From NCBI GenBank assembly GCA_022824395.1, contig JAJDZX010000008.1, positions 1-64,000 on the forward strand: a DNA stretch of 64,000 nucleotides, read 5' to 3'. Positions 52,690 to 55,448 of this stretch are shown in pieces (position 1 is the stretch's first letter; each line of letters begins with the position of its first letter). Source of the stretch: Alphaproteobacteria bacterium. Lineage in GTDB: Bacteria; Pseudomonadota; Alphaproteobacteria; TMED109. The notes below the pieces were generated by a model. That model ran no database searches, was not told the origin of the DNA, and saw only the letters and a program-made list of their open reading frames with translations. A program made the position numbers and the translations under genes.

Positions 52690-53193
52690 TCACGCGTCCA
52701 ACAGGCCGGCGAGTTCGGACATCCGCAGGACCAGCATCAGCGGCTCGCGCTCCGAGAACGGACGGAAGCCGAAGCGTTTGTAGAAGGCCTTCGCGCGTTC
52801 GTCGATGGCCTGCACGATGACGGCGCGGGCGCCCACCGTGCCGGCGGCGGCGAGCGAGCGCCGTGCCGCGTTGATCAGAAGGTCCGAGCCGAGACGCCGA
52901 CCCCGGTAGGCCTCGTCAACCGCGAGCTGTCCCAGAAGGATGACCGGGATCGGGTCGGGCATGTTCCGGCCGACCCGGGACGACACCCGGCGCCGTTCCA
53001 CGGAACTGGCGGCGAGGCTGTAGAACCCGGCCACCCGGTCGCCGTCGCAAGCCACGTAGGTGCGCGCGCCGCCCCTGGCCTCGTTCAGCCTTGCCTTGCC
53101 CCGGAGCCAGGCGTCGAGAGTGGGGACGCCCGAAGAGAACTGCGAGATGTCGTGGCGGGAAGCGAGCGGCTCGGGCGGTTCTAGCGGTCCCAC
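52690..53193 (-). CDS. GNAT acetyltransferase, putative toxin
   Basis: A 167-residue acetyltransferase of the TacT/AtaT class. The start PEPLASRHDISQFSSGVPTL followed by DAWLRGKARLNEARG is typical, the acetyl-CoA site is QLAVDEAYRGRRLGSDLL, and the C-terminal AFYKRFGF carries the catalytic Tyr. These toxins acetylate charged tRNAs. The start is GTG 53193, overlapping the antitoxin by 13 bases. Confidence 0.88.
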   Translation of the reverse strand: MGPLEPPEPLASRHDISQFSSGVPTLDAWLRGKARLNEARGGARTYVACDGDRVAGFYSLAASSVERRRVSSRVGRNMPDPIPVILLGQLAVDEAYRGRRLGSDLLINAARRSLAAAGTVGARAVIVQAIDERAKAFYKRFGFRPFSEREPLMLVLRMSELAGLLDA

Positions 53194-53438
53194 TGAGGCC
53201 GGCGCGCGTAGCGCGCCTTCACTGCGGGGTCGATCTCCACCGGCGCGTCGAGCGCGGCGACGAAGTCGTCCCAGGCCTCGTCGTCGAGGGCGATCACGGG
53301 GCGCTCGTTCAGGATCTCGATCGCCGCCGCCTCGCTGGACCGGAGCAAGAACTCGGTCCGGCTGACGCCCCGAATCGTTGCCGCACGGTCGATGATCGCC
53401 AAGCGTTCGCTGGAGGTGCGGAAATTCACCTGGGGCAT
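53181..53438 (-). CDS. DUF1778 antitoxin
   Basis: An 85-residue protein with an N-terminal ribbon-helix-helix, MPQVNFRTSSERLAIIDRAA then SRTEFLLRSSEAAA, and a C-terminal toxin-binding tail from EAWDDFVAALDAPVEI. GGGAGGAG precedes ATG 53438. Paired with the downstream GNAT gene as a type II toxin-antitoxin operon that should repress itself. Confidence 0.9.
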   Translation of the reverse strand: MPQVNFRTSSERLAIIDRAATIRGVSRTEFLLRSSEAAAIEILNERPVIALDDEAWDDFVAALDAPVEIDPAVKARYARRPQWDR

Positions 53439-53643: not shown

Positions 53644-54024
53644 TTAGAAGGGTATGTCGTCGTCCTGAATATCGTCGGCCGGCGCCGCATGCGTCATCGG
53701 GTTGCGCTGGGCCGAGTCACCGCTCGAGAAATCGTCCTGCGGCTTCGCCCCGCCCTTGAAGCGGTCGAACCTGCCCTTCGGCGACGGTGCCGCCCGCGGC
53801 CCGTCATCGCGCGGCGGCGAGAACAACAGGCGAAATGCCGGTGCGCGGGGATTGTCGCTGTCGTTCGGAAACACCATCACGAAGGAACCCGCGGGGATCG
53901 TGATGTCCTCGTCGTCCGAGGTGCGTCCGCCGATGTACTCGCGGCCGTTGGCACTCGTGCGCTCCCAGAGACCGGCAATCTCCTGCAGGCTGTCGTCGCC
54001 CCGGCGATAGCGTTCGTCGCTCAT
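53644..54024 (-). CDS. Small protein with an SSB-type C-terminal tip (DUF736-like core)
   Basis: A 126-residue protein. The first 70 residues, with IAGLWERTSANGREYIGG and AFRLLFSP, look like a small beta domain akin to DUF736. A Gly/Pro/Asp-rich linker follows, and the protein ends DIQDDDIPF, the same acidic tip that single-stranded-DNA-binding protein uses to recruit RecO, PriA, RecQ and others. There is no OB-fold signature of SSB. ATG 54024 follows GAGGAT; the frame stays open above it. It lies 63 bases after an esterase gene. A true SSB fragment is the main alternative. Confidence 0.72.
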   Translation of the reverse strand: MSDERYRRGDDSLQEIAGLWERTSANGREYIGGRTSDDEDITIPAGSFVMVFPNDSDNPRAPAFRLLFSPPRDDGPRAAPSPKGRFDRFKGGAKPQDDFSSGDSAQRNPMTHAAPADDIQDDDIPF

Positions 54025-54087
54025 GGTCTGATCCTCGTTTTCTGCGTCACCACTTTTTACCACACAGCGGCGGGGGCCATCCAAGCC

Positions 54088-54747
54088 TCATCCAAGGAGC
54101 CGGCACCGCAGAAAATCCGCTCCTAGCGCGATCCCCTCATGGTCAATCGAATGGCCCAGTCCCGGTCGGACGTGGTAGCGCACCCGGGCTCCCAGCGGCG
54201 CCAGTTCGGTGACCGCCGCGAACATGCCCGCAACCGGCAACACGTCATCGGCCGCCCCATGCACCAGCAGGACGTCGGCGCCACTGGTGGTTCGCGCCGA
54301 CGGCAGCAACGCTCCCGAATACCCGAGGATCCCGGCGAAGCGCCTTGGCAGACCCAGCTCCAGAGCCACCATGGTGCCCTGACTGAAGCCCACCAGCGCC
54401 ACGCGTCCCTCCGAGAGGCCGAGCCTTTCCTGTTCAGCCTTGAGGAAGGCCTCCAGGTCGGCAACCGCGCGCGCGGCGGCGGCTGTACGGTCCTGCTCGG
54501 CGCTCGCAAGACTGAACCACTGAAAGCCAGCCGGGTTCTGGTCGCATCGCTCCGGTCCGTGGGGGGAGACGAACTCTGCATCGGGTAGCGCTTTGGCGAA
54601 CAGGGGGGCCAGCTGAATCAGGTCGTCACCGCTCGATCCCCAGCCGTGCAGGAACACGACCAGCTGCCGGGCGGCCGCGCGCGACTGCGGTCCTACACGC
54701 GGCCCCGACAGAGGGCGCGTTCGCGAGCCGCTGACCGAATCATCCAT
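54088..54747 (-). CDS. Alpha/beta-hydrolase, phospholipase/carboxylesterase type
   Basis: A 219-residue hydrolase. The Ser nucleophile is in GFSQGTMVALEL, the oxyanion strand is LVVFLHGWGSSGDDL, the Asp is in VHGAADDVLPV, and the His is in GLGHSIDHEG. Length and motifs match the carboxylesterase/lysophospholipase family. GGAGAGCAGG precedes ATG 54747. Substrate unknown; short-chain acyl esters are typical. Confidence 0.9.
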   Translation of the reverse strand: MDDSVSGSRTRPLSGPRVGPQSRAAARQLVVFLHGWGSSGDDLIQLAPLFAKALPDAEFVSPHGPERCDQNPAGFQWFSLASAEQDRTAAAARAVADLEAFLKAEQERLGLSEGRVALVGFSQGTMVALELGLPRRFAGILGYSGALLPSARTTSGADVLLVHGAADDVLPVAGMFAAVTELAPLGARVRYHVRPGLGHSIDHEGIALGADFLRCRLLG

Positions 54748-55097: not shown

Positions 55098-55448
55098 ATG
55101 AGTGAAGCGGCAGCAAGACCGGTCGTGCAGCTCATTGCCCGGCTACAGAAGGATGGCGGCCTGAAGGGAACCGACATCGCGAACCTTACGGGTGTTTCCA
55201 GGGCCACAGTCTCCAGCTGGGGTACCGACCGGAAATCGCCGCATCCGAAGACGCAGTTGATCATCTCCGACCTGGCCTGCGTGGTCATGCGACTGAGCGC
55301 GTACTACAGTCGCGAACAAGTACGCCCATGGCTCTACGCGCGTCATCCCCAGTTGGAAGGCCTGAGAGCCGTCGACCTCATCCAGGATGAGCGAACCGAA
55401 GATGTGATCGCGATTCTCGACCGCCTCGAGGCCGACACATACCTTTGA
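55098..55448 (+). CDS. ParS/MbcA (DUF2384)-type antitoxin without a RES toxin
   Basis: A 116-residue protein. The Xre-like helix-turn-helix is LKGTDIANLTGVSRATVSSW; the C-terminal domain contains LEGLRAVDLIQDERTEDVI, typical of MbcA/ParS, the partner of RES NAD+-degrading toxins. Only 97 bases separate its stop from the next gene, and no RES frame is seen on either side, so it is an orphan. ATG 55098 is chosen over an in-frame ATG 42 bases before. Confidence 0.82.
   Translation: MSEAAARPVVQLIARLQKDGGLKGTDIANLTGVSRATVSSWGTDRKSPHPKTQLIISDLACVVMRLSAYYSREQVRPWLYARHPQLEGLRAVDLIQDERTEDVIAILDRLEADTYL

Follow-up and report, generated by a model that had tools for sequence, protein, structure and literature searches.

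The 64,000-nucleotide stretch of alphaproteobacterial DNA analysed here (the window) carries on its minus strand a gene of 126 codons that runs from an ATG at 54024 to a TAA at 53644 (53644–54024). Its product ends in ...PADDIQDDDIPF*, and translation bears out the initial annotation, which had described a 126-residue protein with the ending QDDDIPF and left the strand unstated. The ATG is supported by a GAGG motif resembling a ribosome-binding site, read directly from the sequence 8 bases before it (54033–54036, minus strand), and by the orthologues, which share the same methionine; in two of these (L004 and L010), a stop codon lies immediately 5' of the shared Met, so that an earlier start is impossible there. 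The protein consists of a predicted four-stranded beta mini-domain, distantly related to half of DUF736 (residues 9–75; 53800–54000), a linker rich in Gly, Pro, Asp and Gln that is modelled with low confidence (residues 76–119; 53668–53799), and the sequence QDDDIPF, which is the canonical C-terminal tip of SSB (residues 120–126; 53647–53667), all encoded on the minus strand.

With SSB the protein has in common an N-terminal folded domain, a low-complexity linker and a DD[ILV]PF tip, but its domain is about half the size, is predicted to have four strands and no helix, and has no detectable homology to SSB. In Pfam, NCBIfam and PHROGs, no SSB, DUF736 or other profile matched the 126-residue protein above threshold, and the sub-threshold matches to SSB profiles (phrog_44, NF006445) are confined to the C-terminal end. 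The SSB OB-fold domain (PF00436) is absent from the Pfam matches, hhalign comparison of the N-terminal domain with the SSBs of these genomes yields probabilities of 0.3–1.4%, and the predicted model shows no OB-fold, all of which agrees with the earlier claim that the N-terminal part has no SSB OB-fold. The main SSB in each genome of the genus ends in DEEVPF, and the tip of the small protein is the more canonical of the two; in other genera of the family, two relatives have SSBs with the endings IDDDIPF and LEDDIPF. The SSB tip docks RecO, PriA, ExoI and other proteins, and each of the seven genomes of the genus encodes RecO. Docking of DnaG has been described as well (PMC5872125). Extra SSB paralogues in the genus (L026, L027, L029, L031) have DWA or DWV ends and no acidic PF tip.

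The gene is present in 7/7 genomes of the genus, with an identity of 89–100%, and all seven orthologues keep QDDDIPF, the retention of the tip being a point that the initial annotation had proposed to follow in homologues. It is under strong purifying selection in the genus (dN/dS of 0.093 for the whole gene), which is most pronounced in the domain (0.029) and more relaxed in the faster-evolving linker (0.205), while the last seven residues are constant and their codons vary synonymously (pS 0.51, pN 0). The gene was not found in 21 genomes of the other genera of the family, many of them small and incomplete, nor in 33 sampled genomes of the class, and a full-length profile gave real matches in the genus only among 385 genomes of the class. 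The sole match of that profile outside the genus (G297, L015) lies near rsmH in a different reading frame and is attributed to chance. A homologue with 61% identity and the ending GEDVPF is found on a 6.4-kb contig that was binned as Chloroflexi, an uncertain taxonomic assignment. On that contig (L008:653-4663), it lies 207 bases upstream of a gene for a 1,141-residue nuclease-helicase (RNase_H_2, AAA_11/AAA_12).

The upstream neighbour, 63 bp away, is an Abhydrolase_2 carboxylesterase-like gene (54088–54747, minus strand), which has to our knowledge no tie to DNA metabolism. It stays beside the 126-codon gene within the genus, one genome being cut by a contig end, and the same flanking genes surround it in every comparable genome of the genus, with G001 and G004 limited on one side by contig ends. 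On the other side, a TacA1-like antitoxin gene and a GNAT toxin-like gene (52690–53438, minus strand) are missing at this place in five other genomes of the genus; the relatives that were compared join the sequence from 52662 to that at 53645 across only about 100–130 bases. The pair is a lineage-specific insertion and a bystander to the 126-codon gene, and it therefore offers no argument for a mobile origin, a possibility that the initial annotation had raised along with the closeness of the pair. The gene itself belongs to the syntenic backbone of the chromosome across the genus and varies in neither presence nor position (7/7 genomes, same neighbours). Its neighbours are metabolic, unlike the replication-module settings of its relatives described below, and a remote phage or mobile-element origin is plausible, since the family as a whole is borne by phages and mobile elements. 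The segment 54851–55486, with an Xre/MbcA/ParS-like regulator gene at 55098–55448, is also missing at this position in the compared genomes of the genus and is an insertion in the window genome.

Relatives beyond the genus were reached mainly with the domain alone. The profile A2, built from the domain of the genus without the rest of the protein, led to a protein of a different class (L090; 109 residues, ending SDDIPF), and from there to a phage protein (L105; 98 residues, ending GDDDLPF). Further relatives are found in the Rhodobacteraceae phage LS06-2018-MD06 (85 residues, ending EDDLPF) and in the podovirus MW202697.1 (70 residues, ending NDDIPF). A search with a degenerate DNA pattern limited to the domain brought up nine viral contigs that encode it, and domain-only HMM scans of 398 genomes of the phylum and 385 of the class yielded additional members. 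Several weak domain-profile matches (in L091–L103) were discarded on translation, and four matches to the DNA pattern (L115, L118, L121, L160) proved to encode unrelated proteins. The domain of the genus aligns with this phage mini-domain family in hhalign at 97.7% (E 1.3e-12), domain-only HMMs of the family recover the window gene, and the window protein carries the family motif L[WY]xxxSxxGxxYxxG ... PN ... P[DA][YF]. The members are proteins of 70–130 residues built on a non-SSB domain, and the family is undescribed: PHROGs and NCBIfam hold no family named for the mini-domain, and the open-licence literature gave no account of it or of SSB-tipped non-SSB phage proteins. BLAST of the 126-residue protein found no relative in phage records, and in plasmids DUF736 alone at E 0.1.

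The relatives lie in modules for replication and recombination that belong to phages, prophages or plasmids. The gene of L090 lies between a primase-helicase gene (phrog_239) and an SF2 helicase gene, that of LS06-2018-MD06 precedes genes for an Erf-like annealing protein and an exonuclease by three genes, and that of MW202697.1 lies directly before an exodeoxyribonuclease; DNA polymerase and exonuclease are likewise named among the neighbours of relatives. Pfam domains encoded near other members include a ResIII-type SF2 helicase (L125), a VapE-like domain (L128), Pox_D5/DUF5906 (L132), Prim-Pol and D5 (L120), DnaB and RusA (L113), and AAA_25 and PDDEXK_15 (L143). In the phage of L111, another small protein could be its SSB.

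Among 26 complete family proteins, non-redundant at 90% domain identity, 13 end in [DE][DE]xPF, five end in PF or PY without the two acidic residues, and eight have no tip; without the window family and L008, the count is 11/24. These proteins were collected mainly by domain-only searches, four members having first been reached by full-length queries, of which L105 was found again with the domain pattern, and the matches to phage records cover the domain region only. By comparison, among 2,101 unrelated frames from other loci, each 60 codons or longer, one has a [DE][DE]xPF end. The initial annotation had named two refuting outcomes, homologues without the tip and an OB-fold model: the close homologues all keep the tip, about half of the distant phage homologues have it, and the model shows no OB-fold. 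The linkers of the family are rich in Gly, Gln and Pro, as in SSB, and the length of the tail is highly variable. The eight proteins without a tip indicate that the domain has a function independent of it. Some tip-less phage members (L117, L119, L120, L112) end in long tails that are acidic or rich in Gly, such as ...GMPWED.

With no more than the genus alignment as input, AlphaFold produced a poor model (pLDDT 61); with 13 diverse sequences it predicted beta strands at residues 14–23, 29–32, 48–53 and 64–69, with block-mean confidences of 84–96 from residue 21 to 70 and a core pLDDT >90. The mini-domain is predicted to have about 55 residues and four beta strands. Searches of PDB structures with this model gave no credible match, the best values being an E of 1.5 in Foldseek and a Z of 2.8 in VIA, and PC4 was not among the matches listed by either program, an absence that says little. 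In BFVD, the matches are uncharacterised phage proteins only, the best being A0A6J5M2W4 (E 0.008).

The resemblance to DUF736 proposed by the initial annotation holds as a distant kinship to about half of that domain, and not as membership of it. The window protein has no match to the DUF736 Pfam model (PF05284) at E<=1, and thus falls short of the gathering score; its relatives score 12–16 bits, below the cut-off of 22.1. The mini-domain family aligns with DUF736 at a probability of about 92% (E 7e-7, 33 columns), and the window subfamily alone at 9%, so that the link between the window protein and DUF736 runs through the phage relatives. The two have the motifs G..W...S..G..Y and ..PDYRV in common, and they differ in that DUF736 has roughly double the length and hardly ever carries the tip. 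Since the family aligns with about the first half of DUF736, and single members weakly match a motif of its second half, DUF736 may be a doubled mini-domain. DUF736 is carried by conjugative elements of alphaproteobacteria and is found on all Mesorhizobium ICEs (PMC8627217). In another alphaproteobacterium, a true DUF736 protein (L088:1459-1905, plus strand; Pfam E 1e-8) ends in LDDDIPF, which suggests that the tip has been joined to the DUF736/mini-domain superfamily more than once. The next two genes downstream of this DUF736 gene have no Pfam match.

The architecture, the module contexts of the relatives and the pattern of conservation are best read together as those of an SSB-like accessory factor that recruits SSB partners, a reading to which we assign a probability of about 55%. 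The beta mini-domain would make contact either with DNA, probably in single-stranded form, or with part of the replication complex. The disordered linker would present a canonical SSB C-terminal peptide, which in turn would dock RecO and other enzymes that bind the SSB C-terminus. As the initial annotation proposed, the protein could recruit SSB partners or compete for them. Against the accessory factor weigh the acidity of the window member's domain, its metabolic neighbours, the eight relatives without a tip, and the small protein in the phage of L111 that could be the SSB of that phage. Within the genus, the chromosomal copy would now be a stable gene that provides a second docking tail, of the DDDIPF type, besides the DEEVPF of SSB. 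The recurrence of the tip in replication clusters of phages and mobile elements suggests a compact alternative route into the host repair machinery.

For the phage members, direct binding of ssDNA is plausible. It is doubtful in the window member because of its acidic domain (net charge −7, vs −1 to +5 in six relatives). This acidity argues for an adaptor role in the window member and favours the main rival explanation, in which the beta domain holds a specific partner without binding DNA and the tip brings in the enzymes that bind the SSB C-terminus. Such an adaptor would also fit the family members without a tip, as well as the metabolic neighbours in the genus, with which the partner could be anything. 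Nevertheless, the relatives lie in replication modules, where contact with DNA is natural, and five of the six tip-bearing phage- or prophage-type relatives checked have slightly basic domains (+3 to +5); we regard an adaptor of this kind as improbable.

Ranked below the adaptor, and rather unlikely, is a decoy whose free tip competes with SSB and inhibits ExoI, RecO, PriA, RecJ or similar enzymes, either as a phage counter-defence or as a host regulator. The existence of small monovalent proteins that end in exactly this tip, and their frequency in phages, would suit this role, but the same domain also occurs in members without a tip, it is the most constrained part of the protein, the gene of the genus is chromosomal rather than phage-borne, and high expression would be needed against the abundant tetrameric SSB. 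Acidic C-terminal tails are known to regulate ssDNA binding in SSB and phage SSBs. SSBc moreover has effects on PriB (PMC8509808), and it is conceivable, though very improbable, that the tail, being acidic and aromatic, acts intramolecularly or mimics DNA over the DNA-binding face of the domain, as the acidic tails of phage SSBs are able to do, with host docking being secondary; the great variation in tail length speaks for this explanation, and against it speaks that the exact D-D-[ILV]-P-F end is conserved, not mere acidity. Lastly, the motif is short, and an unrelated small protein might end in it by chance; this explanation is refuted by the recurrence of the tip, seen in 13 of 26 family proteins and in 1 of 2,101 background frames, and by the absence of amino-acid change in the tip despite its synonymous variation.

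For the accessory factor, a partial precedent is DdrB of Deinococcus radiodurans, an ssDNA-binding protein that lacks an OB-fold; its C-terminus is disordered and purportedly resembles that of SSB, and the SSB-like motif is reported to be dispensable for radioresistance (PMC3834827). By its published description, DdrB differs in fold and size, and there was no PDB sequence match. The PC4-like ssDNA-binding protein of phage T5 and AcrIIA22 are likewise tiny phage proteins with a four-stranded beta-sheet that act on DNA (PMC8545432), and neither gave a sequence or fold match to the mini-domain. The SSB tip is usually treated as a signature of SSB itself; if the proposed function is true, phages and some bacteria would enter the SSB interaction network without an SSB. 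It would also be the first testable function offered for the DUF736 superfamily, which many conjugative elements carry, and it would provide a minimal natural SSB-tip protein for the study of tip binders.

More tentatively, and with the odds somewhat against it, the mini-domain family and DUF736 could together form an unrecognised class of ssDNA-binding proteins in phages and conjugative elements, not built on the SSB OB-fold, that has repeatedly gained the SSB tip, the window gene being a domesticated chromosomal member and a second SSB-like hub. As a separate observation, in one alphaproteobacterial family there are proteins of about 270 residues (L137–L141, L147) with several DUF736-like repeats (..ENSYKSEETHPDYRIEV..GSAWM..NDYLSL..).
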